Below, one piece after another: positions 30,112-45,280 of a stretch of DNA of 64,000 nucleotides (positions are counted from its first letter, which is position 1; every line of letters starts with the position of its first letter). The notes under the pieces are model-generated. The model was given only the letters and a program-made list of their open reading frames with translations. It did no database searches and was not told where the DNA came from. Source of the DNA: Hyphobacterium sp. CCMP332 (GTDB lineage: Bacteria > Bacteroidota > Bacteroidia > Cytophagales > CCMP332); assembly GCA_014323545.1 (NCBI GenBank), contig CP058647.1, positions 1,776,001 to 1,840,000 on the forward strand, read 5' to 3'. The position numbers and the translations under genes are program-made.

Positions 30112-30137
30112 AAGGGCCTCGAAAGAGGCCTTTTTTT
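30112..30137 (+). terminator. Rho-independent terminator after the zinc-ribbon membrane protein gene
   Basis: A stem GGCCTC (30115-30120), loop GAAA and GAGGCC (30125-30130), extended by A-A-G/T-T-T pairs, is followed by seven T. The T run reaches the stop codon of the convergent aldehyde dehydrogenase. In the other direction the hairpin is not followed by T, so it works mainly for the plus strand. Confidence 0.85.
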
Positions 30138-31581
30138 ATAACTTAATACAAATATTCTTAGCCTCGGTAAAAAACCGAAGTGCTTCAAAGCCACCTTCAC
30201 GTCCAACACCAGAATTTTTCATTCCACCAAAAGGGGTTCTCAAGTCCCTCAAAAGCCAGGTATTAATCCAGATTACACCACTTTGTACAGCATGGGCCAC
30301 CCTGTGTGCTTTATCCAGATTGCTTGTCCAAATACTGGCTGCGAGGCCGTATTCTGTGATATTGGCATATGAAATTACTTCATCTTCGCTTTCAAATGGA
30401 GTAATTGTAATTACCGGTCCGAATATTTCTTCCAGATTGGTGCGGCATGCAACCGGAAGGTTCTCAATAATGGTTGGTTCAATAAAATAACCATTTTCAC
30501 ATCGACCTGGGAGTTTTATTTGTTTACCACCACAAAGAATTTTTCCACCCTCTTTTTGTGCCAAATCTATATATGAAAGAATTTTCTCCATATGACCTTT
30601 TGAAACGATTGCGCCGATTTGCACATCCTCTTCCTGGGGATCTCCAATTCGCAAAGCTTTTGTTTTTTTGATCAATTCTGTTTTGAATTTCTCGTAAATG
30701 CCCTTCTGAATAAATACCCTTGATCCGCAAAGGCAAATTTGTCCCTGATTGGCAAATGAAGAAAGCATGCTTGTAGAAAGAGCTTTGTCAAAGTCACAAT
30801 CCTCAAATATGATATTTGGATTTTTACCTCCTAATTCAAGCGATAATTTTTTAAACATCGGCGCAGCCGTTTTTGCTATTTGCTCACCGGTTTTTGTGCC
30901 TCCTGTAAATGAAATGGCTTTTATACCCTTATGCTCTGACAGGGCCTGTCCTACTTTTGGGCCCAGACCGTAAATTATATTTAACACTCCGGGAGGAAGC
31001 CCTGCTTTTATACAAATATCAGAAAGCAAAAAGGCCGTCATCGGTGTGATTTCTGAAGGTTTGGCGATAACACAATTACCACTTGCCAATGCAGGTGCTA
31101 TTTTCCATGTAAATAGATAGAGCGGCAAATTCCATGGAGAAATACAGGCAACTACACCCAGGGGTCTTCTGAGGGTATAATTGACTGCAGGCTGCTCTTC
31201 CATATAATGAGATAAGGAAGAATCGTGCAAAATGGCCGTGGCAAAAAAATGAAAATTGCTGCTGGCTCTTGGTATATCAACTCTTTTTGCAAGATTTATT
31301 GGCTTGCCATTATCAATGGATTCTGCCACGGCAAGACCTTCCAGGTTTTCATCGATTAGCCTTGAAATATTAAGTAGTATTTCTGAACGATCTTTAATGG
31401 ATGTTTGGCTCCATTTGGGAAACGCTTTTTCTGCCGCCTGATAGGCAAGCTCTACATCTTCTGAGTCAGAATCGGGAATTTGAGCATAAACGGTCCCAGT
31501 AGCCGGGTCAACATTGTCGAGGTAGTTTTGGCTTTTGGGCGCTACTAATTTTCCACCAATATAATTGTATAACTTTTCCAT
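30136..31581 (-). CDS. Aldehyde dehydrogenase, ALDH8 / 2-aminomuconic-semialdehyde dehydrogenase type
   Basis: 481 residues of NAD(P)-dependent aldehyde dehydrogenase. Diagnostic parts are ISPWNLPLYLFTWKIAPALASGNCVIAKPSE, the glycine motif SFTGGTKTGEQI, the catalytic Glu in LSLELGGKNPNIIFED and the catalytic Cys in FANQGQICLCGSRVFIQK. The wording throughout (AESIDNGKPINLAKRVDIPRA and others) is close to animal ALDH8A1 and bacterial aminomuconate semialdehyde dehydrogenases of tryptophan/kynurenine breakdown. No other gene of that route is in the window, so the substrate remains open. It is a single gene. Confidence 0.92.
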   Translation of the reverse strand: MEKLYNYIGGKLVAPKSQNYLDNVDPATGTVYAQIPDSDSEDVELAYQAAEKAFPKWSQTSIKDRSEILLNISRLIDENLEGLAVAESIDNGKPINLAKRVDIPRASSNFHFFATAILHDSSLSHYMEEQPAVNYTLRRPLGVVACISPWNLPLYLFTWKIAPALASGNCVIAKPSEITPMTAFLLSDICIKAGLPPGVLNIIYGLGPKVGQALSEHKGIKAISFTGGTKTGEQIAKTAAPMFKKLSLELGGKNPNIIFEDCDFDKALSTSMLSSFANQGQICLCGSRVFIQKGIYEKFKTELIKKTKALRIGDPQEEDVQIGAIVSKGHMEKILSYIDLAQKEGGKILCGGKQIKLPGRCENGYFIEPTIIENLPVACRTNLEEIFGPVITITPFESEDEVISYANITEYGLAASIWTSNLDKAHRVAHAVQSGVIWINTWLLRDLRTPFGGMKNSGVGREGGFEALRFFTEAKNICIKL

Positions 31582-31618: not shown

Positions 31619-32836
31619 TTAATCAAAATCGGTTGTCAATTTGAATCGCAGAATTCTCCCGTTACCGGCATCTGCCACAAAGAGAATTTTATCAATATAA
31701 GCGACAGCCGTGGGTCGGTTAAATTCTGATAAACCCGAACCGGAGCCGCCAAAAGAAACATTTATGTTTTTATTTGAAGATGATCCCGGCGGAGCCTGTA
31801 CTCCTTCAAGACCGGTCAGGGTAAAAAGATATACAGAGTCCTTAATGGCATCCGGAATGATAAGATAATTGGTGCCGTCGCCGGTTATTACAGGGCGTTT
31901 TGGATTTGCAAAACGGTCAGGAGTGTATAAAAAACCATCAGCCCTGCTGGTATCTCCAACCGGTAAATTTAAGCCTATGTATCCCAACTCGTTTTCAGTG
32001 GCTATAAAATCAATAATCTGAGTTTTAAGAACGGTATTCGGATCATTGGAGCTAAAAATAAAATCATAATTCTGCACCTCTTGAATTCTTTGAGGGGGTT
32101 GATTAGAATTGGTTATTCCGAAAGGTTTTTTGAAAAAATCCGATCGATTACCAGAAACCGTGGTCGATACATTGATTCCGGAAACAAAACGATCATCGCG
32201 ATTGAATATTAGAACGGCATCATCAGGACCACCGAATTGATTTAAATCGTTAATTGGGCCATTTCTTGTGACATAATACTCCCCATTGGCCATTATGGTG
32301 ATATCGTTAAATTTAACCTGCTCCAGGAGGTCTTTGCCTTTTCCAAGACTTGAAGTCAAATAAAAAGGGTGTACGATCACTTTTTCTATAACTGCGTCCT
32401 CTAAGCCTTCATAAGACACGTCCTGATTGGGATTGGTATTTAGCTTATATATAGCGTCAAGCCTGTAATCAACATCGGACACAGTGGTATCCTTAATACC
32501 CAAAACAAATAGTGTTAAATCCCTACCCTGAGCTATGGCTTTGGCGCCCGGAATCACTCTTCTTCCAACTTCAACCAAACTGAAATCATAGGCAATGACT
32601 TCTGAACTCGAAGAATCCACCACGTAAATAAGTTGATCAAAGCCTGCAATAATATCGGTTGGATTGCCAAATCCTTCAATAGTCGGCAAGATGGGCACAT
32701 AGGCCACGGGGCGGATTTGAAAATCGGGCTCCCCGAGAAAATCGAGACCTGTCTTTTTACCAAAAAAGTCCTGGCATGCGCTAATCCCCAGTCCAATGGT
32801 CAATAGTAAGATAATATTGATCCAGTTATTCTTCAT
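31619..32836 (-). CDS. NHL-type beta-propeller lipoprotein
   Basis: 405 residues. The signal peptide LLLTIGLGISAC ends in a lipobox. The mature part has propeller-like repeats such as GFGNPTDIIAGFDQLIYVVDSSSSEVIAYDF and the C-terminal FNRPTAVAYIDKILFVADAGNGRILRFKL, the NHL pattern. Middle sections are strongly beta. It is the last gene of the surface locus and overlaps the PorV/Q-like gene by 11 bases. It could cap or recruit partners at the outer membrane; no enzyme site is evident. Confidence 0.8.
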   Translation of the reverse strand: MKNNWINIILLLTIGLGISACQDFFGKKTGLDFLGEPDFQIRPVAYVPILPTIEGFGNPTDIIAGFDQLIYVVDSSSSEVIAYDFSLVEVGRRVIPGAKAIAQGRDLTLFVLGIKDTTVSDVDYRLDAIYKLNTNPNQDVSYEGLEDAVIEKVIVHPFYLTSSLGKGKDLLEQVKFNDITIMANGEYYVTRNGPINDLNQFGGPDDAVLIFNRDDRFVSGINVSTTVSGNRSDFFKKPFGITNSNQPPQRIQEVQNYDFIFSSNDPNTVLKTQIIDFIATENELGYIGLNLPVGDTSRADGFLYTPDRFANPKRPVITGDGTNYLIIPDAIKDSVYLFTLTGLEGVQAPPGSSSNKNINVSFGGSGSGLSEFNRPTAVAYIDKILFVADAGNGRILRFKLTTDFD

Positions 32837-33836
32837 CTCTTCCGGTATTATTTAAAGTAAAGCTTATTCCTGCGGAGTGTTGTATACCAAGAAAATTTGT
32901 AGGATTTATTGCATAATCGATTCGCAAGGGGTGTTTTCCTATTCTTGTTTTAAGGCCTGCTCCGAAACTCGGTAAAGTTTGGCCCAATACATTAAGTTTA
33001 TAACCACCTCGCAAAAACAAAAACTCCCTGTACATGTATTCCAGCCCCAGACGAATATTTTCTGCATTATCATTGGGGTGGTTAAGTTGTATTCCGGTAA
33101 TAAGAACATGATCTCCCTTTTCTAAGGGCCGCATGCTCATTCCCAGTTTAAACACCGTTGCCGGAGAATTACTGCTGAGGTCATAATTGCTTCTGTTAAA
33201 ATCCAACTCAAGAAAATCACCGGATAAACTGCTGTTTGTTCCGAAATTTTGTAGTAAAATGGCAAACTGCAGGGCTTTAAAATCTGTGCGATAGAGAAAA
33301 CCCAGATCTATGGCTGCGCTGTGATCTATGTATTCTGCAAGCCTTTCCTGAATGTATTTTATTTGAATTCCAAAACTGAATTTATCGGACAACGTTTTTC
33401 CATATGCCGCACCTGCAGCAATACTGCTTGCGTAAAAATACTCTCCCGTACCACCGGGTTGAAACTCGGTTCTTCTTTCCATTTTTTCGGAAGTCTGTGC
33501 GGTCACTTGCATTCCCCAGGCACCGCCGTTTTCGGTTGGTAGAATTGCACTGAAATAACTTTGATTTAAACCTTGTATGATAAATTGATTGGAGCTTGCA
33601 AGGCTAAGATTTTTAACATCAGTCATTGAAGCCGGATTGGTATAGAGCGAGTAAGCATCCCCTTCAATGCCAACATGAAAACCTCCCATGGCTATAGAGC
33701 GGGGACTCATGTTATTTTTCAAAAATGTGAGTGAAGATATGCCCGTTCTTTGGCCACCCAAATTAGGAATAAGCTGCGCTTGTAACTCAGCAACAGCGAC
33801 AATTGATATAAGCGATATGATGAATAACTTTCTCAT
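32826..33836 (-). CDS. PorV/PorQ-family outer-membrane beta-barrel protein
   Basis: 336 residues. After the signal peptide (ending AELQAQ) comes GQRTGISSLTFLKNNMSPRSIAMGGFHVGIEGDAYSLYTNPASM, the hallmark of the PorV/PorQ (UPF0164-like) barrels, followed by alternating strands and a C-terminal SAGISFTLNN strand. PorV carries T9SS cargo from the SprA translocon to the attachment complex; this is a paralogue or a relative, since the genuine porV usually lies next to porU. Its ATG shares one base with the stop of the TonB receptor gene (TAATG), which strongly suggests a functional pair. Confidence 0.87.
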   Translation of the reverse strand: MRKLFIISLISIVAVAELQAQLIPNLGGQRTGISSLTFLKNNMSPRSIAMGGFHVGIEGDAYSLYTNPASMTDVKNLSLASSNQFIIQGLNQSYFSAILPTENGGAWGMQVTAQTSEKMERRTEFQPGGTGEYFYASSIAAGAAYGKTLSDKFSFGIQIKYIQERLAEYIDHSAAIDLGFLYRTDFKALQFAILLQNFGTNSSLSGDFLELDFNRSNYDLSSNSPATVFKLGMSMRPLEKGDHVLITGIQLNHPNDNAENIRLGLEYMYREFLFLRGGYKLNVLGQTLPSFGAGLKTRIGKHPLRIDYAINPTNFLGIQHSAGISFTLNNTGRDEE

Positions 33837-36712
33837 TAAAAATTAAAGCTTAAACCTGCAAGTATCTGTCTTGGTTGTCTCCACCTGGCCGGATTAAATG
33901 GCGGTTGTGAATTGTTTTCAGGATCCGGATATAATGGATCTCTGTCACTTATTGGAAGCGGATCTCCAAATTCATAGGCCCTTCCTGTTACCGGGTTGAT
34001 AATTTGAGAGTTAAGGTTATTTAATAGATTCTTTACTTCAAAACTAAGCGAGACTGAACTCCTGGCAGAAATTGGAAAATCTCTTGAAATTCTCAAATCG
34101 AGCCAAAACCAATTTTCACCTACTTCTTCAAATGGAGCATCAACTACTCTCTCGTATTGAGGCCTTCCATTTGGTGCTACACCGGTTTGTACATAAGGGG
34201 TGTAGCGAAGACCTGATTTCCAGTTGGCGCTTAAATAAACTTTGAAATTGTTAAAATTGACTTTGCCGATTCTAAAGGTGGTATCGGGTTTGAAAAGAAT
34301 TCCCGCTTTAAACTCAAAGGGTCTGTCCCAGGCGAGATAGTTTTCTTCCGTTGCATTGACAAAACCCTGAGTATTGATTTGTAACTCTGATTCTGCCGCT
34401 GTATTGGATTTCCCTGTAGCAATTTGATAAGCAAATGAAGCATTGGTCCTGAACCATTTTCCAATTCGTTGATTATAGCCCAGTTCTACACCTCTGATTC
34501 GGGCATAGTCCTGATTTATATAGAATTGCTTTTCCACAAATTGACCGGTTTGATCCCGAACCTGAATTCTTCTTGACACAATATAGTCAAATCGATCATT
34601 GTAAAATGCCGTTACGGTGAAGGCTAAATCCCTTGTAATTTGTGTTTTTAAACCCAGTTCATAAGACACCGATACCTCGGGATCGATATCGGGGTTTCCG
34701 AGATTGGAAAGAAAACTTCTATTTTGATATACTTTATCCAGTCCCTGATATATAAACCGAGGATGCGCCAAACGCATGGAATGCCCATAATTGAAATAAA
34801 GTACATTGTTTTCTGTAATAGGGAAGGAGACATTGAGTTTTGGCAACAAACGCGCTTTCCACCTTAATCCGGCCACCTGAACTGTTTTGTCTTTATAGTC
34901 CTGCCTGATTTGATCCAGTACAGGGGATTCCGGGTCATCCACTACATCATCGACAAATTTGCCCGGTGCCCAATATTTAAATAGTACCCCAAAGGTGGCA
35001 ATCAGGCCTTTGTATTTAATCTGATCCTCCGCAAAAATCCCACCTTCCTGTGGTTTTACTGCCCAAACATCACTTGTAGAACCTATAGAAATTAGTGGTG
35101 TAGTAAGTGTGTCATTGACTTTTATTGGGGCTCCTACCCAAGGGTCTTCAACATCAATCCACTGGTATTCCTGTAATTTATGTTCGATGCCAAAAGTGTA
35201 AAAATGAGTATTGTTTTTGGAGATGTATTTGAATTTGGTTTTAAAGGTGTATTCCTGAACATAATGATCGTGCCAGAGGCTGGCAATTCCATTGTTATTG
35301 GCTAATCCCGGACCAGGAAGTACAAATACAATACTATCGGCCGGGTTGAAGAGATTAATAGGGTCTGAAACAATGCTTTCAGCATCCAGAATTCCTGAGA
35401 CTGTTTCTTCCCTGAATGGCCTTCCATTGGCATCGGCTCTAAGATTGACAAATAATCGTCCAACAGAAGTTTCTACCCTCAATCGTTCCTTAAAAACATG
35501 AGAGAAGTTAAGCGCTGTTAAATTCGATCGGTGTGTATAGGTATTTGCATTGTCTAAATCTCGACTGAAGAAATACTGAAACCCCGGTGTGATGATGGCA
35601 TCATTTCCCACTATTTGTAAGGACCTGGTACTTTGATTGACATTAATGCTGTGTTGATTTGTAATGGTGAGTTTTGTGTTGTTCTGTATTTTGTAACTTA
35701 GTTTTAAAGTATGCGACCATTTGTTCGCCTGTCGCGGTGCCCAAAATGTTTGATTTGTAGCAGATCGATTAAATAATCTATTGGAGCCCTCAACCAAGCC
35801 ACTACTGTTATTCTGAAAGAGCGAGCTGTTCAATTGATCGGCTGTAGGGCCAAAATAATTATCAGTAATAAACATATTGGCGCTGGTAAAAAATGTAGCT
35901 TTTCCTGAAGTGAATGGAATTGGCCCGCTAAGCCCCAAATCCACGATATCGGTGTTCCATTGTGTGGTATCATTAAAACCCAGATTATCCCTTTGCCAGG
36001 ATCCGGTCACAGAATATTTTTTGCCCCCTTCTCGAATTCTGGTCAAGATCACTCCTGAAGTAGAGCCTCCAAATTCTGCATTTCCTCCACCGGTTATCAA
36101 TTCTACGTCCTTAATCGAGGAACTGGCCACTTCCACTCCAAAACCAGTACCCGAAAGAGGATCCGATGCAGATATACCCTCGACAACGTATGACGTTTCA
36201 TAGACTCTGCCCCCGCGAATCTGAATACCATCGGGAGTTTCGGTAACACCCGCCTGCATGGCAACTACATCCTGAACATTTCTGACGTTCATTTCCTGAA
36301 TCTCCGTGGCAGAAATCTTCACTTGCGATTTTCCGGACTCCAGATCAACCAAATTTTTGTCACCCACTACAACTACCGTTTCTAAAGTTGTACCCAACTC
36401 TTCCAGTTTTACATTGAGTGTAGTCGTTTGCCCTTTTTTGATTCTTATTCCGTTGAACTGCTTCTCATTGTAACCCAAATAAGTTACACGTATGGTATAA
36501 TCACCGGGTTTGAGCTGATCAATGGTGTATTCCCCGTTGAAATCAGCTGCGGCCCCTTGGTAAGTTCCAACCACAAAGACATTGGCGCCAATAAGTGCTT
36601 CGCCGCTGCCGGAATCAATGATCTTGCCTTTCAATTTCCCCTGAGAAAAAGCAGAGACGCTCATAATTAGGAGTAGGATTGATATATAAAATCTACCAGT
36701 CAAATTCTTCAT
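33836..36712 (-). CDS. TonB-dependent receptor with N-terminal carboxypeptidase-regulatory-like domain
   Basis: 958 residues. It has a signal peptide to about residue 23, a CarboxypepD_reg-like domain (residues about 24-105, GKIIDSGSGEALIGANVFVVGTYQGA), then the plug (QDVVAMQAGVTETPDGIQIRGGRVYETSYVVEG ... VELITGGGNAEFGGSTSGVI) and a 22-strand barrel ending RQILAGLSFNF with the terminal aromatic. It moves or gates a substrate through the outer membrane using TonB energy. No SusD-type lipoprotein is encoded beside it; instead it is flanked by an FN3 lipoprotein (20-base overlap) and a PorV/Q barrel (one-base overlap). The substrate is unknown. Confidence 0.93.
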   Translation of the reverse strand: MKNLTGRFYISILLLIMSVSAFSQGKLKGKIIDSGSGEALIGANVFVVGTYQGAAADFNGEYTIDQLKPGDYTIRVTYLGYNEKQFNGIRIKKGQTTTLNVKLEELGTTLETVVVVGDKNLVDLESGKSQVKISATEIQEMNVRNVQDVVAMQAGVTETPDGIQIRGGRVYETSYVVEGISASDPLSGTGFGVEVASSSIKDVELITGGGNAEFGGSTSGVILTRIREGGKKYSVTGSWQRDNLGFNDTTQWNTDIVDLGLSGPIPFTSGKATFFTSANMFITDNYFGPTADQLNSSLFQNNSSGLVEGSNRLFNRSATNQTFWAPRQANKWSHTLKLSYKIQNNTKLTITNQHSINVNQSTRSLQIVGNDAIITPGFQYFFSRDLDNANTYTHRSNLTALNFSHVFKERLRVETSVGRLFVNLRADANGRPFREETVSGILDAESIVSDPINLFNPADSIVFVLPGPGLANNNGIASLWHDHYVQEYTFKTKFKYISKNNTHFYTFGIEHKLQEYQWIDVEDPWVGAPIKVNDTLTTPLISIGSTSDVWAVKPQEGGIFAEDQIKYKGLIATFGVLFKYWAPGKFVDDVVDDPESPVLDQIRQDYKDKTVQVAGLRWKARLLPKLNVSFPITENNVLYFNYGHSMRLAHPRFIYQGLDKVYQNRSFLSNLGNPDIDPEVSVSYELGLKTQITRDLAFTVTAFYNDRFDYIVSRRIQVRDQTGQFVEKQFYINQDYARIRGVELGYNQRIGKWFRTNASFAYQIATGKSNTAAESELQINTQGFVNATEENYLAWDRPFEFKAGILFKPDTTFRIGKVNFNNFKVYLSANWKSGLRYTPYVQTGVAPNGRPQYERVVDAPFEEVGENWFWLDLRISRDFPISARSSVSLSFEVKNLLNNLNSQIINPVTGRAYEFGDPLPISDRDPLYPDPENNSQPPFNPARWRQPRQILAGLSFNF

Positions 36713-38159
36713 TTAATGCAGTCTCAAAAAAGGTTTGAAGTCCCTGCGGGTTGCCGTTAAATTTGTGCAATTCGATAGAAAAGAAAATAAAATTGGTTTG
36801 TCCTGAACCGTTTTCCACTTTGGCACCAATGACTTCCGGTCCATCCCAACCATTCAATTTTAATGGTTCGGATAAAAATAATGCCGTGCTACCTAAAGAA
36901 TTGTGAAAAGGGGCCGCATTGGCAATATTCGCTGTGCATATCAAACTGTCATAAGCAGGCAATTGAGGTCTTGCTACAGATCCATTCACATATCTTGCCT
37001 GTGACACACCATTTTTTGGTGATATACTATCGATCGGTGCAAAATTAAATATGGGTGAGCTTTGATCCGCATCACCAGTTAAAAAAGCCGAAATAATCAA
37101 TTTGCCGCCATCGTCTAAATAAGGCTGAAGCCCGGAAATGGCAACTTCTAATAATGGTGAACCGGAAGAAAAGTTTTCATCAGATGAATACCAAAAAAGA
37201 GAAGGGTAGAGATCTATAAGCAGTGGAAAATTAAAATTCCAGAATCTAATATTTGAACCGGCCTCATTATCTAATATATCAATAAAGTCCGCCGGATTAC
37301 CGGATGCATTAATGATTGAATTGTATGTTGACCTTAAAGACTTATCAAAATGCGCAGCTATTATTAATAAGTCAGATGTTTTAGATTTCAAATAAAAAGT
37401 GCTAGTGGTATCCACATCACTCAGAGAACCGGCATTATCTCTTGTTTGTATGTATACTGTGTTGATATCATTTAATTTTAATCCGGAAATGGTGGTATTC
37501 AATTCGCTTTCAGAATTGATTACAAAAGAAGGTGAAATAGTACTGCTTAATAATATTCTGGTTTCAACCTCGCCGGTAGCCGTTGGATCTACAGGTATAA
37601 AACGGGCGGCATTTTTTTGTCCATCTATAGGAAACCATGGCCCCTCGTTTATTTTTATGAAAGTCGAATCGATGGTTTCTTCCCCGTCGAGATCAAGCGT
37701 ATTCCAAATCAATGAAAACACCGTATTGCTCGTATCAACAGGGAAAAAGTCCTCATCAAATTGTATTTCAGGAGCCGTGTTACGGATTGGAATTTGTAAG
37801 TAGGCCGGACTTGGGTCAATGAGCCCGTCATTGTCGATTGCCCTCACAAAGAAGTCAATGTTTGCTGTATCGGACCCTTCCGATATGGTGAAATTAAAGG
37901 TGCTATCTGTGCTTGTTGTTCTCGACCAAATGATTTCATCAAAAGAGATTTCATATTCCTTGACAAAACCGTCTTTATCCGTTCCGAGCCAATTTAAACT
38001 CACGACACTGGTTAATCGATCCTGACCAACAAGATCTATCTTATTAATAAAGATGGAAGTATCCGGTGGTGTTTTTGGAAGGGGACTACCCTCATCGCAT
38101 GAGGACAACGCCAGAACAATCAACCAAGGAAAATATTTGTGAAATTGCTTTCTCAACAA
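36693..38159 (-). CDS. FN3-containing surface lipoprotein with amidotransferase-like C-terminal region
   Basis: 488 residues. The signal peptide ends ALSSC (lipobox). Two FN3/FlexFN3-like modules follow (SLNWLGTDKDGFVKEYEISFD ... FFVRAIDNDGLIDPSPA; and SLIWNTLDLDGEETIDSTFIKINEG). From about residue 270 there is an alpha/beta region: SDLLIIAAHFDKSLRSTYNSI, then LFWYSSDENFSSGSPLLEVAISGLQPYLDDGGKLIISAFL, resembling glutamine-amidotransferase-like or DUF4350-like folds, without a visible catalytic triad. No ATG is available: the frame opens at TAA (38166-38168) and the first start is TTG at 38159 (or 38156). A hairpin lies just upstream. Confidence 0.78.
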   Translation of the reverse strand: MLRKQFHKYFPWLIVLALSSCDEGSPLPKTPPDTSIFINKIDLVGQDRLTSVVSLNWLGTDKDGFVKEYEISFDEIIWSRTTSTDSTFNFTISEGSDTANIDFFVRAIDNDGLIDPSPAYLQIPIRNTAPEIQFDEDFFPVDTSNTVFSLIWNTLDLDGEETIDSTFIKINEGPWFPIDGQKNAARFIPVDPTATGEVETRILLSSTISPSFVINSESELNTTISGLKLNDINTVYIQTRDNAGSLSDVDTTSTFYLKSKTSDLLIIAAHFDKSLRSTYNSIINASGNPADFIDILDNEAGSNIRFWNFNFPLLIDLYPSLFWYSSDENFSSGSPLLEVAISGLQPYLDDGGKLIISAFLTGDADQSSPIFNFAPIDSISPKNGVSQARYVNGSVARPQLPAYDSLICTANIANAAPFHNSLGSTALFLSEPLKLNGWDGPEVIGAKVENGSGQTNFIFFSIELHKFNGNPQGLQTFFETALNEEFDW

Positions 38160-38163
38160 GCTT

Positions 38164-38200
38164 AATTAAAACCCCTTCCCAATGATTTAATGGAAAGGGG
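38164..38200 (-). terminator. Hairpin followed by T-rich stretch between the OB-domain protein and the FN3 lipoprotein genes
   Basis: Read on the minus strand, CCCCTTTCC and GGGAAGGGG form a nine-pair stem (one T-G pair) around an 11-base loop, followed by TTTTAATT. It could be a terminator or an attenuator that lowers expression of the four downstream genes compared with the two secreted proteins upstream. The next gene starts five bases after the hairpin's T tract. Confidence 0.6.
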
Positions 38201-38208
38201 AAATTAAA

Positions 38209-40377
38209 TTATCTATTTATAATCAATTGGAAGGACTCAATAAAATTACCTTCTTCCATTACCTTCATAATGTACTGGCCATTTTGCATCATTCTAAGAT
38301 TGAATTTGCTCAGTTTTCCATTAGCTTGATTCTCCCAAACTTTTTGTCCAAGTGTATTGTAGATTTCAACCTGATATGATTTATTATCAAAAGCAGAAAC
38401 CAGGCTCAATTCATCTGAACTTGGGTTTGGATAGATTTTTAAGGTTCTATCAGCAACTTCATTTCTATCAATTCTTGTAATACTATTGTTTTCAAAGTCA
38501 CTATTACTTCTGGGTAGCAATTTGAAGTTTCCAAATGAGTAATACATGACTCCCGTTAAACCCGTCATCCTATCACCAACTTCAACCGGGATTTGAGTAA
38601 TGGAGTAATTTGGATCGAGCTGTACATTAGGCGTTGTAAAGGAAACATTTATTGATCCTCCGCCACGTCCGACCAATACTCTTGAACCATTATTTGGATT
38701 AAACTTATCCAAGCCAACTCTAAATTCTCCAAAATCACTTGGAGCATCTGCATTATCTTCAACTATGTAAACACTGTCGCCTGGATTTGTACCAACAAAC
38801 TTCAGCAACAAACCTTCATATTTTTCATTTGCTAAACTATAAGAAGTAAAATCTCCCGGATCTTTTTCGATAGGTGCTGGCGCACCAACCGTTGTAACTG
38901 TTGTAAAATCAGCATCATCCTGAACTTCAATTTGAGTAAAACCAAAGCTTTCCTGAACTATTCCGGTTACCTGAACTAATTCACCTTTGGGTGTATTTGA
39001 AAAGTTTTGAGGGTTTCCACCACCAAAAGCAACTCTAATTCCACCCCATTCCGTTACATTGACATCTTGAATCCAGTTAAAACTTTCAAAATCACCATCG
39101 GCGATAGAAGCAGAAACAACTCCCTGAACAGTTACGGTTTCGCCTAAATAACCGGATTCCCCATCATTGTAAATGGTATATTGTAAATCCCTTACAGTTA
39201 ACAGACCAGTGTTACGAACAAAGTAAAAAAACTTTTTATCATTAGCCCCAGCGCTTGGAACAGATGTAGTATTGTTATCGTTGTCAGTTGCTTGTAAGTA
39301 GTATTTTACCATTTGGCCATCAGATGCTGCCGGTATAATTGCAGTATACAAATTGTTTGATCCGGTAAAGGTCATACTTACCGGCGTAAAGTTTGTATTG
39401 GCTTCTCCAAAAGCATAAAACAACTGAGGAACGCCAACAATTGAACCACCATTATCCGCTATTGTTGCCGTTACTGTTACCTGATCTGCATCGGTAGGCA
39501 CCTGAATATTCCTAAATACATTAGTGATTTTGGGTGCAGAAGGCCCATATACATAATGAGTTGTATCAAAAGGAGCAATGGCATATGGTGGTGAGTTTCC
39601 AAAATTTCTACCATCAATAATTCCTTTTAGCGTGTCAAAAATATCTCCAATTACCGGCGGATTAAATGGAGGATATGGAATTTGATTATTTCCGGATACT
39701 ACAGATGGTTGTTGTACCGTATATGTATCATAAACTTCTACCTCATTATTGTTAGCATCCTTTACCGTAAAGCGAATATCTGTAGAAGTTGCTACAACAT
39801 TGGTTACTTCAACGCCAATAAATTCTGCAAACGAAGCTTCAAGCGGCTCTCCGGATACCGAGCTTGGTATAGCAGGATTACTTAATTGAAATACACTTAG
39901 ATCGGAGTATTTATTTGTAAGAACAGGTCTTAAACCACTAACACCGGTCAAAATGGCAAACCCTCCACTTGGAAGCGGGTCAATCTGAGTTTCATTTAAG
40001 AATTCACTAATGACTCCGGTAATTTCAACAGAATCTCCAGGTACTACATTGAGCATATCATCCGGAGTAGTAGCCCCAACGCTTTGTGAATTTGAATAAC
40101 GGACATTAATTCCGGACCAAGGGCCGTTTCCATCCTGTATCCAAATCCATCTTCCTTGTGTTGAACTTGAAACTCCAACGCCCGGAGGTGTAACTACAAC
40201 ACCACGAATTGTTACTGTATCTCCATTATATGGTGATAAATCACCAGTAGTGGTAGTCCCAAGACTATCATTTGGAACCTGCTGAACCTGCTGAATAGTA
40301 AGTAAAGGAAAGGGCTGTGAGAAGGCACTCAAAACACTGAATGTCAAAATTGATAATAGTAGATAAAATCGCTTCAT
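38209..40377 (-). CDS. T9SS-secreted protein with two OB-like domains
   Basis: 722 residues. Signal peptide (ending SAFSQ). Two related modules occur at about residues 45-130 (NGDTVTIRGVVVTPPGVGV ... RWIWIQDGNGPWSGINVRY) and 400-480 (LGETVTVQGVVSASIADGD ... FNWIQDVNVTEWGGIRVAF), both of the OB-fold type found before extracellular nucleases. Between them lies an Ig-like part, and the C-terminus (LKIYPNPSSDELSLVS ... QYIMKVMEEGNFIESFQLIINR) is a type A T9SS sorting domain. It therefore goes to the cell surface or medium. No catalytic residues were identified; binding to a polymer is the best guess. Confidence 0.82.
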   Translation of the reverse strand: MKRFYLLLSILTFSVLSAFSQPFPLLTIQQVQQVPNDSLGTTTTGDLSPYNGDTVTIRGVVVTPPGVGVSSSTQGRWIWIQDGNGPWSGINVRYSNSQSVGATTPDDMLNVVPGDSVEITGVISEFLNETQIDPLPSGGFAILTGVSGLRPVLTNKYSDLSVFQLSNPAIPSSVSGEPLEASFAEFIGVEVTNVVATSTDIRFTVKDANNNEVEVYDTYTVQQPSVVSGNNQIPYPPFNPPVIGDIFDTLKGIIDGRNFGNSPPYAIAPFDTTHYVYGPSAPKITNVFRNIQVPTDADQVTVTATIADNGGSIVGVPQLFYAFGEANTNFTPVSMTFTGSNNLYTAIIPAASDGQMVKYYLQATDNDNNTTSVPSAGANDKKFFYFVRNTGLLTVRDLQYTIYNDGESGYLGETVTVQGVVSASIADGDFESFNWIQDVNVTEWGGIRVAFGGGNPQNFSNTPKGELVQVTGIVQESFGFTQIEVQDDADFTTVTTVGAPAPIEKDPGDFTSYSLANEKYEGLLLKFVGTNPGDSVYIVEDNADAPSDFGEFRVGLDKFNPNNGSRVLVGRGGGSINVSFTTPNVQLDPNYSITQIPVEVGDRMTGLTGVMYYSFGNFKLLPRSNSDFENNSITRIDRNEVADRTLKIYPNPSSDELSLVSAFDNKSYQVEIYNTLGQKVWENQANGKLSKFNLRMMQNGQYIMKVMEEGNFIESFQLIINR

Positions 40378-40385
40378 AAGATTGA

Positions 40386-42521
40386 TTATTTAATAATTAC
40401 AAATTGTCCGTTAAAAGTTTTTCCTGTTTCAAGGTCTTCTACTGAAAAAAGGTAGAGTCCTCTTGAAATTATCTGATTGTCTTTGCTCAATAAATCCCAG
40501 GAATGTTCACCCCCGGAAAATTCAGTTTGATTGCTGGCAGAATAAGTATCGTACCATCTGATATCACTGCCATCATAGGCGCCGTCATGTCTGAACTCAT
40601 CGACCAAATCACCTGCATTGGAAAATATTCGCACCACACATTTTGCCGGAAGGTTGGCAAAGTTTAATTTTCTATCTTCTTCAAAAATACTTGGCCCTTC
40701 CCAGGATGCGCCGGCATAATAGGGATTAGGGTAAACAAAGGGATCTTTTTTTTCTATATCAGGATTTTCACGCGTACCCGGATAAACACGCTTTAGAGCT
40801 CCTAATGCACTTGATTCCAAAGAGCTTATACCGTTTTCCTTATCCCCTCTGTCAAAAGCGGTTACACTGACTGCGTATTGCCAGCCATTGAGAATATTAT
40901 CAATTCTTAATCTGTAGAAATACTGATTGGTATCTCCTTCAAACTGAATCGGAGAATCAAGCCTTATACTATCAAAACCATTGTCAAAAAATATTTGATT
41001 GTCTTTAATATCATATTGCTTAAACAACACTAAAGATTGCTGAACATTGCTTTGGTTCTCTACATCAAATCCCAATTTAGATAAGTAAATTTTGTAACCT
41101 TCAAAATCCATCTCCTGAGAAATTGGATCAATCGACGTTTCAGAATTAGCAGTCCAGTAGATGTCTATAAAATTATCTCCTGACTCGATTTTAGTATTTG
41201 GAATATCGGGAGGAGTGGGCAAGATGTACCTTGTGATTTTTCCGTTTTGATCAAGGTCTTCTCCTTCATCCAAAACTCCATTAAAATTGGCATCTTCTCC
41301 ATTAAATGCCGTCTGAGCCCATCCTGCATTCGTAACAAATTGCACTCTTTCTTCGGGCAAATCAAGGTTTTGCGTTTCAGAGCTATTTATTGTTTTTACC
41401 ATTGGCGCATACACCATGGCAAAGGCTACATTAACAGTATCACCCGGTAAAGTTTGAGCAAATGGACCAACTGAAATCAGATTTGACCTGTTTCCGGGTT
41501 CTCTTAACTCTTCCCAATACGATTTCCCCGAGCTCGTTCCGCCATTGGCCTGACAATCGGGATCATTTACATCGTAAAAACAGGGTAATTGATTTAATCC
41601 CTGTGTCATTTTTTGATAGCGTTTTTGCTCTGTATCCGGAAAAGAATAAAACAGACTGTTTGTATTTCTAAAAAACCAGGAAGAATAATGCAATTTAAAA
41701 TTAGGATCTATTAAAGGGTGTTTAAAGCCTTCCTTGTCAGAAGCACCTAAAAACTTTTCACCCTGATAAGAATCAGAAAAACCCACATCTCCGGCTGCAT
41801 CAAAATCATAACTCATGTATAATGAGTCAAGATAACCATTTCCACCTTGAGAATAGAAAACGCTTCCACCCGGTGGAGTAAGGTTTACATTGCGGACTAC
41901 ACCATTTACAAGGATCCCAACATACATCGAATCCAAAGTATTATTTCCGTTATTAATAATTTGAAAATCAAGAATCACAAAAAAATCAGCAAAAGGGAAA
42001 TTCCAATTATATACCTCGTATTTAACCTCCAATCCCATTGGATTATCGTGACCACTAATTTGGGTATTGTCCGTTCCGGGAACCGTTATATTTTTATCAG
42101 TAAAATAACTAACAAAATCCTGTTGTGAAACGGCATTTGGTGAATAAAATGGACTATTGACTTCGTTGGATCTTTCGGTAATACCGGAACCGACCTCCGC
42201 AGTCATTTCAAAATTAGGCGCCCCTGTTGTGTAGCCATTGGGTGCATCGGAATAAGCGGTGGATACAGCGACCTGATTTCCGTTAAGCAATGCCCCAATC
42301 CAAATACCACCTTGAAATGCATGTTCTACACCTGAATTAAGCGGAAATTCAGCAGAAGGAGAGCCGATCAAATTGAAATCGCCCTTAAAGGCATTTCCAA
42401 TCATTCCAAGATTATTGATTGTTAGACCTACATTGCATACTTCCGTTACTCTTTCCTCGAAAGACTGAGAATAGCATGTTACGGACATGAAAGTCAATAT
42501 AAAAAGTGAGAATGATCGCAT
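40386..42521 (-). CDS. T9SS-associated surface protein with FlgD/Por-like C-terminal domain
   Basis: 711 residues. Signal peptide (ending TCYSQ). The N-terminal part NVGLTINNLGMIGNAFKG ... GVEHAFQGGIWIGAL is a pattern I know only from uncharacterised surface proteins of Bacteroidota and relatives. A calcium-like loop (NFNGVLDEGEDLDQNGKIT) sits near residue 415. An FN3-like module follows. The tail VYPNPYYAGASWEG ... LNFANLPAKCVVRIFSNAGDLVDEF ... SRGLYLFSVEDLETGKTFNGQFVIIK is a FlgD-like/T9SS sorting domain. It leads the second part of the surface locus behind a -7 box and is followed after eight bases by the OB-domain gene. Confidence 0.8.
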   Translation of the reverse strand: MRSFSLFILTFMSVTCYSQSFEERVTEVCNVGLTINNLGMIGNAFKGDFNLIGSPSAEFPLNSGVEHAFQGGIWIGALLNGNQVAVSTAYSDAPNGYTTGAPNFEMTAEVGSGITERSNEVNSPFYSPNAVSQQDFVSYFTDKNITVPGTDNTQISGHDNPMGLEVKYEVYNWNFPFADFFVILDFQIINNGNNTLDSMYVGILVNGVVRNVNLTPPGGSVFYSQGGNGYLDSLYMSYDFDAAGDVGFSDSYQGEKFLGASDKEGFKHPLIDPNFKLHYSSWFFRNTNSLFYSFPDTEQKRYQKMTQGLNQLPCFYDVNDPDCQANGGTSSGKSYWEELREPGNRSNLISVGPFAQTLPGDTVNVAFAMVYAPMVKTINSSETQNLDLPEERVQFVTNAGWAQTAFNGEDANFNGVLDEGEDLDQNGKITRYILPTPPDIPNTKIESGDNFIDIYWTANSETSIDPISQEMDFEGYKIYLSKLGFDVENQSNVQQSLVLFKQYDIKDNQIFFDNGFDSIRLDSPIQFEGDTNQYFYRLRIDNILNGWQYAVSVTAFDRGDKENGISSLESSALGALKRVYPGTRENPDIEKKDPFVYPNPYYAGASWEGPSIFEEDRKLNFANLPAKCVVRIFSNAGDLVDEFRHDGAYDGSDIRWYDTYSASNQTEFSGGEHSWDLLSKDNQIISRGLYLFSVEDLETGKTFNGQFVIIK

Positions 42522-42575: not shown

Positions 42576-43838
42576 TTATTTTTTCAGAATTTTAATTTTT
42601 CCACAATTTCCATCTTCACTTATCCAGCTTAAAATATAAATTCCACTTTCTTCATTAAAGGGTAATGCTAAGGTCTGAGCATCATTTATTCGATAGTCAC
42701 CAATTATTTTTCCCTGAATAGTGTTGATCTGAATGCTGTAATTTTTTCGACTTAAAAAACTCAATTTAATTTCATTGTCAATGGGGTTTGAACTCAGTTT
42801 TACCTCATCCTTAATTGTACTTTTTGAAAGGGCCACCATACCCGTACTTTCAATTTCCAGATCAAGATAAACAGGCAAATGATCGGAGAGGTCAAATAAG
42901 GCATCGGCAATGGAATCCGGAACAGCTGAATTCGTTCCTGCATTGATGGAGCTGTTAAATCGATTTCCGTCCTGGCCATAAGCAGTGTAAGTGCCCGGGA
43001 TATATTCTATGTTCGCAGAATCTCCCATGATGTATTCCGAGGCAAAGATCACATCAAAACGATCATCCATTCCGCCACCTGCACCACAGCCACTGCTGGT
43101 ATAGGTAGATTGCGTGTGAATGGGGGCAAAGCTTGAATTGTTGTTCCAGAATCCAAGACTATTGATGGGGTCAATGAATTTTACTTTTGGATCGGAAGGG
43201 TTCAATAAATTTTGAATACCTGCTTCATTGCTCGAACGTGAATTGAAATCACCCATCACCAAATAATTATCCCGCACTCCTTTTGATACAAGCGTATTGA
43301 TTATGTTTTGAGTTTGTTGATCTCTCGTATTCTGATCTGAACCCGTTGAGCCCGCTTTTAAATGTGCATTGATTATCGTAAGAAAAACCGTGTCTGCTCC
43401 CTGAGCCAAAAGCGGGTCTTTATAATAAAAGCGGGCCAGATTAATATCCCTCAAAACGCCATTAATGATTTCTTCCGAGGCAATGCCAAATTTTTGTGAA
43501 TTGTAAAAAAACATGTTCACAATTTCTGACCCGGCGGTATTGCTGTATTGTCCTCTTTGATAGTAATTGACTCCATTGGTGTTCAAAACATTTTGCAAAA
43601 TCCTATCCGCATAAAGCGAATTATTGGCCATTTCATTGATGCCGAGAATATCGGGTTTTGTGCTATGGGCTATCTTTTTAAATGCGGCATCCTGAATAGC
43701 CATGGCAGCGCTGGAATTGGAACATCCCCCTGAATTACTTCCGTAAAAAAGAATATTGTATTGCATCACCCGGGCTGTGTCGATGGATTGTCCGATGGAA
43801 ATATTTGAAACAAAAAGGAGTAAAATAATTAATCTCAA
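42576..43838 (-). CDS. Secreted endonuclease/exonuclease/phosphatase-family enzyme with T9SS sorting domain
   Basis: 420 residues. A signal peptide (ending SIGQS) is followed by an EEP domain with an intact-looking active site: N28 in MQYNIL, E69 in GINEMANN, H159 in INAHLKAG, D197 and N199 in MGDFNSR, and D319/H320 in SDHLPVYL. It should cleave phosphoester bonds (DNA, RNA, phospholipid or sugar phosphate cannot be told apart). The last about 85 residues form a weak type A T9SS tail (LSSNPIDNEIKLSFL ... ESGIYILSWISEDGNCGKIKILKK). The start is TTG at 43838 in a TTGA overlap with the symporter stop, so both are made together. Confidence 0.87.
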   Translation of the reverse strand: MRLIILLLFVSNISIGQSIDTARVMQYNILFYGSNSGGCSNSSAAMAIQDAAFKKIAHSTKPDILGINEMANNSLYADRILQNVLNTNGVNYYQRGQYSNTAGSEIVNMFFYNSQKFGIASEEIINGVLRDINLARFYYKDPLLAQGADTVFLTIINAHLKAGSTGSDQNTRDQQTQNIINTLVSKGVRDNYLVMGDFNSRSSNEAGIQNLLNPSDPKVKFIDPINSLGFWNNNSSFAPIHTQSTYTSSGCGAGGGMDDRFDVIFASEYIMGDSANIEYIPGTYTAYGQDGNRFNSSINAGTNSAVPDSIADALFDLSDHLPVYLDLEIESTGMVALSKSTIKDEVKLSSNPIDNEIKLSFLSRKNYSIQINTIQGKIIGDYRINDAQTLALPFNEESGIYILSWISEDGNCGKIKILKK

Positions 43839-45280
43839 GGCCTTCGATTTTTAAGCAAAAGTAACCCTAAAAATGTAAAGGCCCCATTAATTATCAAAAC
43901 CGTAAAACCGAGGCTAAAACCTTCAAACCAAATGGGCAACATGTGATCCAAAAAGTATGATATAGCCGGACTTATTAAAACCACTATTGGTACGTATTTA
44001 TCCTTGATTGAATAACGCGTAAAAATGCCGAAAGTGAATAAACCCAAAATTGGGCCATAGGTATAACCGGCCACTTTGAAAATGGCACTAATAACGGTGT
44101 CATCGTTTAAAATTCTGAAGACGACTATTACCATAAAAAGCAATACAGAGAAACCCAGGTGAGTTTTAAGCCTGATTTTGCGTTTTTGCTTTTCGTCATC
44201 AATTTTTTTGAAGTTTAAAAAATCAACACAAAATGATGTAGTAAGGGAGGTTAGGGCTGAATCGGCACTGGAATAGGCTGCGGCCGTCATTCCCAACAGG
44301 AAGATAATTCCGGCATAAGTTGGAAAATGATGAACAGCCAGAAACGGGAATAGGTCATCGCTTCTTTCCGGAAGGGAAATGCTATGAAAATCAGTGTAAT
44401 TGTAAAGTAAAAGCCCGAGTATTAGAAAGAGTAGATTTACAAATACCAAACTCGAACTGAACCAATACATGTTTTTCTTGGCATCTTTTAAATTGCGGCA
44501 GGTGAGATTTTTCTGCATCATGTCCTGATCGAGCCCGGTCATGGCAATGGCAATGAATGTGCCCGCAAAAAACTGTTTAAAGAAATTTTGAGAGCTATTC
44601 CAGTCCCACTCAAAAATTCTGGACATTTCCTGATCCGCAATAAATCCAGGTAGTGAGGTTAAATCAATATTAAGATCGTTTGAAATCACATAAATGCTTA
44701 CAAAAACAGCAATTAACATGAACAGGGTTTGCAAGGTATCCGTCCATACGATTGTTTTTATTCCTCCGCGATAAGTATACACCCAAATGAGAAGGATGGT
44801 AATGGCCACAGTTGCCATAAAAGGAACCTCCCAGGCATCAAAAAGAGATATTTGCAAGACCATTGCAACAAGGTAAAGACGAAAAGCCGCACCAATGGTC
44901 CTGGACAAAAGGAAAAATGCAGCACCGCTTTTATAACTAAAAAAACCAAATCGGGATTCCAGGTAAGTATAAATAGAGGTAAGATTAAGCTTATAATAAA
45001 TGGATAAAAGAACGTTGGCAATTACAAAATAACCCACCAAATAGCCCAAGACAATCTGCATATAGCTAAAATTGGACGATCCCACCCAACCGGGTACTGA
45101 AATAAACGTCACTCCAGAGAGCGAAGCACCAATCATTCCAAAAGCCACCAAATACCAGGGGGAGTTTTTATTGGCAGTAAAAAAAGAATCAGAATCTCCC
45201 TTTCCGGCAGTTAAACGAGCCAAAATGATCAATAGGAGGAAATACGAAGCGATTATGAAAAAAACTAATCCTGGTGACAT
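43835..45280 (-). CDS. Sodium:solute symporter (SSS family)
   Basis: 481 residues with about 13 membrane helices. It starts GLVFFIIASYFLLLIILARLTAGKGDSDSFFTANKNSPWYLVAFGMIGASLSGVTFISVPG, where the GxxxxSGxTF part is the SSS family signature, and has GLDQDMMQKNLTCRNLKDAKKN and GMTAAAYSSADSALTSLTTSF, the Na+-site region. It brings a solute in with sodium. The substrate is unknown; the coupled secreted phosphoesterase suggests uptake of a product released by it, which is inference. Confidence 0.9.
   Translation of the reverse strand: MSPGLVFFIIASYFLLLIILARLTAGKGDSDSFFTANKNSPWYLVAFGMIGASLSGVTFISVPGWVGSSNFSYMQIVLGYLVGYFVIANVLLSIYYKLNLTSIYTYLESRFGFFSYKSGAAFFLLSRTIGAAFRLYLVAMVLQISLFDAWEVPFMATVAITILLIWVYTYRGGIKTIVWTDTLQTLFMLIAVFVSIYVISNDLNIDLTSLPGFIADQEMSRIFEWDWNSSQNFFKQFFAGTFIAIAMTGLDQDMMQKNLTCRNLKDAKKNMYWFSSSLVFVNLLFLILGLLLYNYTDFHSISLPERSDDLFPFLAVHHFPTYAGIIFLLGMTAAAYSSADSALTSLTTSFCVDFLNFKKIDDEKQKRKIRLKTHLGFSVLLFMVIVVFRILNDDTVISAIFKVAGYTYGPILGLFTFGIFTRYSIKDKYVPIVVLISPAISYFLDHMLPIWFEGFSLGFTVLIINGAFTFLGLLLLKNRRP

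Follow-up and report, generated by a model that had tools for sequence, protein, structure and literature searches.

In the type IX secretion system (T9SS), PorU remains on the outer-membrane barrel PorV and PorZ on the barrel PorQ (PMC10202324). Type A tails of T9SS cargo are the kind handled by PorV; for type B cargo, the genes of cognate barrels lie next to that of the cargo (PMC12618676). Riemerella anatipestifer, which is without pilus homologues and was subjected to a transposon screen, depends for transformation on a CarbopepD_reg outer-membrane protein and a DUF5689 protein of one predicted operon (RA0C_RS04915/RS04920; PMC8459023). Two of three tonB mutants of this organism transform less well, one case being attributed by the authors to poor iron use (PMC8383284). 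Here we describe a locus of six genes in a 64,000-nucleotide stretch of the Hyphobacterium sp. CCMP332 genome (contig CP058647.1, positions 1,776,001 to 1,840,000; hereafter the window). It encodes the secreted proteins P711 and OB722, the lipoprotein FN3lp, a TonB-dependent receptor, a PorV/PorQ-family barrel (PorV/Q) and the NHL-propeller lipoprotein NHLlp. The locus is a genuine, deeply conserved outer-membrane unit.

Like the T9SS pairs PorU-PorV and PorZ-PorQ, the block encodes its barrel together with a surface protein, P711, whose C-terminal domain weakly resembles the PorZ tail. Unlike them, its barrel is neither PorV, PorQ nor PorV2 and is linked with a TonB receptor and a pair of lipoproteins, and a family scan found no sortase domain in P711. 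SusCD importers share with the block an operon that combines a CarbopepD_reg TonB receptor with lipoproteins, but the block is without SusD, its receptor stays under the SusC cut-off (77 bits against model TIGR04056, cut-off 368), and it has a predicted T9SS-delivered subunit and a PorV-type barrel. The Riemerella pair joins a CarbopepD_reg outer-membrane barrel to a DUF5689/OB-type protein (PMC8459023), much as the block combines its receptor with OB722, a possible DUF5689 relative, and several pairs of this type in a sample of the window's class (the class sample) lie near EEP or PLD genes, as the block does. They differ in having two genes instead of six and a barrel of another clade, and no PorV/Q or NHL lipoprotein was detected beside the pair in the class-sample regions. 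Type B cargo with PorP/SprF shuttles (PMC12618676) has the same layout of a cargo gene beside its own dedicated shuttle barrel, whereas the block barrel belongs to the PorV/Q family and the cargo tail is without a type B match. BamG-BamH (PMC12578637, PMC12611786) is likewise a FadL-type barrel that works with surface lipoproteins, but the block barrel appears nearer PorV in sequence, and the block has no BamA and is patchily distributed. No description of the locus was found in the titles and passages covered by a search of the open-access literature.

Conservation of the six-gene block

An earlier note on this DNA, made from its letters alone, had described six same-strand genes, the last four of which (FN3lp, receptor, PorV/Q and NHLlp) overlap by 20, 1 and 11 bases, and the absence of SusD. 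This description is accurate: the six open reading frames (ORFs) are present on the minus strand at the positions it gave (Table 1), the overlaps are as described and no SusD family was found among nine locus proteins scanned.

A pattern-based scan of 84,980 genomes, which started from two short peptide patterns and is thus not a census, found the receptor in 72 loci (73 with the window), its relatives in the 72 named loci being 35-66% identical. PorV/Q is adjacent in 42 of the 73 loci, absent from 25 in which at least 1.2 kb downstream is visible, and cut off in six. All six genes occur in 34 loci, every one of which keeps the order P711, OB722, FN3lp, receptor, PorV/Q, NHLlp on one strand. 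These loci are found in Cytophagales, Flavobacteriales, Chlorobi, Ignavibacteriales, Calditrichota and Marinimicrobia. Strains that carry the block and can be cultured include Salibacter halophilus KCTC 52047 (L041) and Acidiluteibacter ferrifornacis S-15 (L094). The block order is thus kept into other phyla, and confinement to close relatives, a possibility that the earlier note had kept in view, is ruled out. FN3lp and receptor overlap or lie within 20 bases in 32 of the 34 loci, receptor and PorV/Q in 31, and PorV/Q and NHLlp in all 34; the close spacing of these four genes is therefore conserved in its own right. The pairwise-identity matrices of the six block proteins correlate at 0.89-0.96, and the six genes are one evolutionary unit. 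Of 20 regions taken from other classes, 19 have the six genes in this order, and OB722 was not recognised in L162. Because its model also caught proteins that share only a T9SS tail, OB722 had to reach 230-250 bits or more to be scored as part of a block.

In an independent sample of 247 genomes of the phylum, each at least 90% complete, the receptor is present in 75, P711 in the same 75 and NHLlp in 74 (Fisher p 2e-63 for the co-occurrence of receptor and P711, relatedness not corrected for). One genome with only a P711 fragment containing a stop (G215) was left out of the counts. The genome that misses NHLlp (G285) has its PorV/Q gene at 232-1299 of a contig, so NHLlp may sit past the contig end. 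All 75 receptor genomes have a PorV/Q match (E <= 1e-50), directly beside the receptor in 71; PorV/Q was matched in 114 sampled genomes altogether, the best place among the matches listed being entered for the 75 block genomes only. Wherever one contig carries receptor, P711, PorV/Q and NHLlp (66 genomes), the four genes are collinear and span no more than 20 kb. Four draft assemblies of one family (f41; G254, G277, G289 and G305) contain receptor, P711 and NHLlp, with block parts on different contigs and one pair 212 kb apart. Their PorV/Q may be another paralogue, because its best match reaches 301-341 bits and block-free genomes reach 305. The receptor matches of the sample all lie in other classes, except that of the window's own genome, and the block is patchy within the window's class.

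P711 is matched (E <= 0.001) in all 33 genomes reached through the loci, as a tail only in G091 and split over contigs in G065 and G085; SprA is matched in 32 of 33 genomes. In genomes with a lone receptor, P711 lies away from the receptor in 16 of the 17 tested and is split over contigs in one, and in several it adjoins OB722. One genome (G072) shows a clean split into EEP-P711-OB722 and FN3lp-receptor-PorV/Q-NHLlp. In the receptor tree the lone receptors, mostly from Chitinophagales metagenome-assembled genomes (MAGs), form one clade of 21 members (support 1.0) nested among block-bearers, so the separation of P711 from the receptor looks secondary.

Proteins of the block and a related trio

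The receptor has a PF00593 barrel (E 3.9e-26), a CarbopepD_reg_2 domain and a Plug domain. A single conserved type spans the phyla, and of three candidates scored per genome, one matches at E <= 1e-140. The PorV/Q barrel passes the broad PorV/PorQ family NF033709 (150.2 bits, cut-off 90) and stays below the NCBIfam equivalog cut-offs for PorV (45.7 of 250 bits), PorQ (76.3 of 220) and PorV2 (26 of 325). Its nearest solved structure is PorV (6h3i, E 6.6e-19); the outer membrane protein 9hiv_F, which we take to be BamG, gives E 0.35. The window genome has four members of the PorV/PorQ family, namely PorV (449 bits, adjoining PorU), PorQ (308 bits, with neighbours that by eye resemble lon and clpX), the block barrel and the barrel of a second receptor locus; the first two pass their cut-offs. 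The block barrel is therefore a paralogue. It is not the sole genuine PorV of the genome, as the earlier note had allowed that it might be, and that possibility is excluded by the separate PorV and PorQ.

The same note had drawn attention to a TonB receptor coupled with a PorV-type barrel; this association is genuine and is repeated at another type of locus. The latter was found through P711-like tails and consists of a receptor, a C-terminal-domain (CTD) protein of about 1200-1500 residues and a PorV/Q barrel. In the window genome the trio (L021:780-10165; C1:2824279-2833664) comprises a TonB receptor of 1320 residues, a CTD protein of 1455 residues and the barrel, and the tail of this CTD protein is nearest PorZ (24.7 bits), then PorU (20.7), all below cut-off. 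The trio is also present in L144. Among 20 further regions, hand-picked from P711-tail matches, 17 contain CTD protein and PorV/Q and 16 the order receptor, CTD protein, PorV/Q; in L221 the ORF upstream was not recognised as a receptor, and L234-L236 are without the trio. It is spread over Bacteroidota genomes, three Chlorobi genomes and one Ignavibacteriales genome. Because PorU stays on PorV and PorZ on PorQ, and because type B cargo has cognate barrels, we suggest by analogy that the PorV/Q paralogues of block and trio may be dedicated carriers of the proteins encoded beside them.

Both upstream genes had been taken to encode T9SS cargo. This stands for OB722, which carries a type A tail (TIGR04183, 39.9 bits, cut-off 23), and applies weakly to P711, whose tail gives a PorZ-tail match below cut-off (15.3 bits, cut-off 260, E 0.0052). 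No T9SS sorting family reaches its cut-off in P711, TIGR04183 is not listed at E up to 1 for the C-terminal 150 residues, and P711 has no Pfam match at E up to 1. In its predicted model (pLDDT 84.0), residues 18-435 resemble the N-terminal beta-supersandwich domains of GH94/GH116 type (Z about 13-19.1), the fold search having returned fold-level matches for residues 15-435 only and barely tested the other parts. In OB722, the stretch 459-643 aligns with the N-terminal region of the ExeM/NucH nuclease model (E 1.4e-11), and the EEP protein encoded next to the block with the C-terminal region of the same model. OB722 was matched to DUF5689 (prob 88, E 3e-6) in one pairwise profile comparison, with no Pfam hit at E up to 0.01. 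One relative (L049:5036-6250) carries inside the block an extra 404-residue secreted protein that is OB722-like (333 bits with the OB722 model) and has no Pfam match. The window itself encodes, at 22436-24205, a 589-residue secreted protein with 179 bits against the OB722 model, perhaps merely through a shared T9SS tail, and with short BLAST matches to the OB722 proteins of relatives.

The AlphaFold2 model of FN3lp (pLDDT 89.7) has FN3 tandems among its Foldseek matches. Its residues 261-488 resemble class I amidotransferase (GATase1) folds (Z up to 13.9), the residues before 260 being barely tested in the fold search. The lipid-anchor cysteine is the sole invariant cysteine of FN3lp and is kept in all 44 aligned homologues of FN3lp, as is that of NHLlp in all 15. 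At least one acidic residue follows within six positions of the anchor in each of these 44 and 15 proteins. At least two, a sign of surface lipoproteins (PMC12578637), are present in 32 of the 44 FN3lp and 8 of the 15 NHLlp homologues.

Substrate, mechanism and rival readings

A nucleic-acid substrate is suggested because four phosphodiesterase families recur at the ends of the block. Among 84 genes that directly flank it on the same strand, 39 encode phosphodiesterases (EEP 29, endonuclease I five, NPP three, PLD two), compared with 2 of the 304 remaining ORFs of 200 residues or more in these regions. Counted by locus, 39 of 67 have at least one such flank and 29 an EEP flank. The count covers 67 of 96 regions, the rest being without receptor plus P711 or NHLlp after ORF picking; L149 lies outside it, though an EEP gene sits upstream of its P711. 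The hidden Markov models used for the flanks were built partly from these same genes, so the scan favours families first noticed at the block; the Pfam assignments are independent. L213:12600-16660 and L214:12848-16793 were scored as misses and have a DUF5689-type barrel and then an NPP phosphodiesterase directly 3' of the NHLlp gene, which places both receptor kinds side by side. In three Chlorobi regions (L059:16731-19499, L063:15240-18230 and L081:16805-19594), DUF5689-EEP nucleases with T9SS tails lie near the block on the opposite strand.

DUF5689 is matched in 21 of 60 genomes of the class sample. The DUF5689 genes of loci L195-L206 and L208-L210 adjoin, or are close to, genes for barrels with a CarbopepD_reg or plug domain, and several have EEP- or PLD-like genes in the vicinity; these loci agree with what has been published on the Riemerella transformation operon. 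Strong matches to the DUF5689-linked barrel (>600 bits) occur in 40 genomes, none of which has the block receptor. At E <= 1e-60 the barrel is present in 44 of 60 block-free genomes of the same order or class versus 2 of 50 block-receptor genomes, these 50 being drawn differently, including lone receptors and belonging, by record titles, mostly to the window's class. Neither system is carried by 16 of the 60. The comparison with Riemerella supports analogy, not membership. ComEC was uninformative as a discriminator, being present in 243 of the 247 sampled genomes, all 75 block-bearers among them. The window genome also encodes a 682-residue protein with a ComEA-like helix-hairpin-helix domain (L020:3260-5308), possibly comparable to the helix-hairpin-helix transformation protein of Riemerella.

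The earlier note had left export and uptake open. Three observations now favour uptake of nucleic acids over an export device: phosphodiesterase genes adjoin the block, one of its secreted proteins is of OB-fold type, and it resembles the Riemerella pair of barrel and DUF5689 protein. Our preferred reading, to which we would give somewhat less than an even chance, is that the block encodes one TonB-driven surface complex of the outer membrane that captures and imports nucleic acid or its fragments, with PorV/Q as the dedicated carrier of P711. We infer the physical complex, the pairing of PorV/Q with P711, the nucleic-acid substrate and the direction of transport. P711 and OB722 would cross the outer membrane via the T9SS; the PorV/Q paralogue would receive P711 from the translocon and hold its uncleaved C-terminal domain, as in PorQ-PorZ and PorV-PorU. 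OB722 and the two surface lipoproteins may cover the receptor and bind the polymer, which a lineage-dependent phosphodiesterase (EEP here) would trim, and TonB would power import through the receptor. If this is true, PorV/Q barrels would not be confined to the T9SS core but would also serve as dedicated carriers in the construction of TonB-dependent surface machines, which would newly connect protein secretion with uptake. Several conserved proteins without a family would acquire functions, a candidate outer-membrane DNA channel would have been named, and DNA uptake in members of the phylum that lack type IV pili would become testable by gene deletion in laboratory strains that carry the block. 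We speculate further, and with considerable doubt, about an ancient DNA-import machine of Bacteroidota and allied phyla. This would be a TonB-driven DNA channel with a surface DNA receptor installed by its own PorV-type T9SS shuttle. Independently of type IV pili, it could serve either natural transformation or the scavenging of DNA, and in many Bacteroidia the Riemerella-type pair would have replaced it. DNA uptake for transformation is possible.

Several results weigh against the preferred reading. Three loci of one clade (L042, L043 and L085) have P711, FN3lp and receptor and no PorV/Q downstream, a further 39 sampled genomes have PorV/Q matches but no block, and SprA was not found in one block genome, the Ignavibacteriales MAG G059. 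No flanking phosphodiesterase is recognised in 28 of the 67 loci, neighbours of other kinds were seen in the scan, among them a patatin/Omp85 protein and an ATP-grasp protein, and extracellular nucleases are commonly T9SS cargo in any case. The first domain of P711 resembles domains of carbohydrate-active enzymes. The block receptor as a direct ortholog of the DUF5689-linked barrel is ruled out: the two lie in different clades with 41-73 bits between them, the group-1 DUF5689-linked barrels listed reach about 390 bits or more among themselves, and the barrels compared were those of the class sample, not RA0C_RS04915 itself. A general replacement of this barrel by the block is also ruled out; it holds within the window's class only, and in other classes the block and the Riemerella-type barrel are independent (both in 12 genomes, 13.5 expected).

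The same kind of complex could serve another polymer, such as a glycan, with the phosphodiesterases as passengers or acting on phosphorylated glycans or teichoic-like polymers. We regard this as rather unlikely, although the GH94/GH116-related beta-supersandwich in P711 (Z about 13-19) is consistent with it, and in this phylum TonB receptors that work with surface lipoproteins take up glycans, vitamin B12 or iron-siderophores (PMC12578637). It does not readily accommodate the four phosphodiesterase families at the block ends or the finding of no glycoside hydrolase among 20 neighbouring proteins scanned. The receptor, moreover, is a single conserved type across phyla, whereas glycan receptors are diversified.

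The idea of the earlier note that the locus is a cargo-specific export or display device, in which PorV/Q and the receptor put P711 and OB722 on the surface and play no role in import, appears less probable still. A shuttle barrel encoded beside CTD cargo is indeed the known layout of dedicated T9SS shuttles, but secretion would presumably need neither a plugged TonB receptor nor two lipoproteins nor changing nucleases, and the type A tail of OB722 is an ordinary one, of the kind that PorV handles (PMC12618676). A role in outer-membrane assembly, modelled on the BAM canopy of Bacteroidota, where the FadL-type barrel BamG holds surface lipoproteins above a folding site, is disfavoured by the sequences and seems highly improbable. 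In its favour, BamG, a homologue of FadL, binds a surface lipoprotein, and a propeller domain is present in BamI (PMC12578637); however, the solved chain nearest to the block barrel is PorV, not another FadL-type chain, and no BamA-like gene was found among the nine proteins scanned. The block receptor is also absent from 172 of the 247 genomes, while BamG and BamH are reported phylum-wide (PMC12578637, PMC12611786).

Gene order and boundaries in the window

Table 1. Genes of the block and its neighbours, in window coordinates.
Feature	Position	Strand	Evidence
Aldehyde dehydrogenase, possibly co-transcribed, outside the conserved block	30136..31581	-	PF00171
NHL-propeller lipoprotein (NHLlp), last block gene	31619..32836	-	PF01436, E 2e-4
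PorV/PorQ-family outer-membrane barrel (PorV/Q), proposed dedicated shuttle/anchor	32826..33836	-	NF033709, 150 bits
TonB-dependent receptor with CarbopepD_reg domain	33836..36712	-	PF00593, PF13715, PF07715
Lipoprotein FN3lp, FN3-like domains and GATase1-like domain	36693..38159	-	AlphaFold2 model, fold matches
OB722, secreted OB-fold-type protein with T9SS type A tail	38209..40377	-	TIGR04183, 39.9 bits
P711, secreted; beta-supersandwich, FN3-like part, PorZ/FlgD-like C-terminus; no known family	40386..42521	-	Model and fold search
EEP-family nuclease/phosphatase, block-associated	42576..43838	-	PF03372, E 1e-5; NF033681, 22 bits (cut-off 300)
Sodium:solute symporter, probable first gene of the transcription unit	43835..45280	-	PF00474, E 2.5e-18

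The transcription unit probably also takes in the EEP and symporter genes, both of which lie 5' of the block on the same strand and whose ORFs overlap by 4 bases. Among the relatives compared, an EEP gene is found 5' of the block in L013, L015, L018 and L019, and a symporter gene in L013 and L015 only, in the same gene order as in the window. Downstream, 37 bases separate the block from the same-strand aldehyde dehydrogenase gene, which does not adjoin the block in the four relatives with this side visible (L015, L017, L018 and L019). A terminator scan with a weak consensus, whose remaining sites fall within genes, placed the sole intergenic terminator-like hairpins of the stretch at 30112-30133, 3' of the aldehyde dehydrogenase gene.

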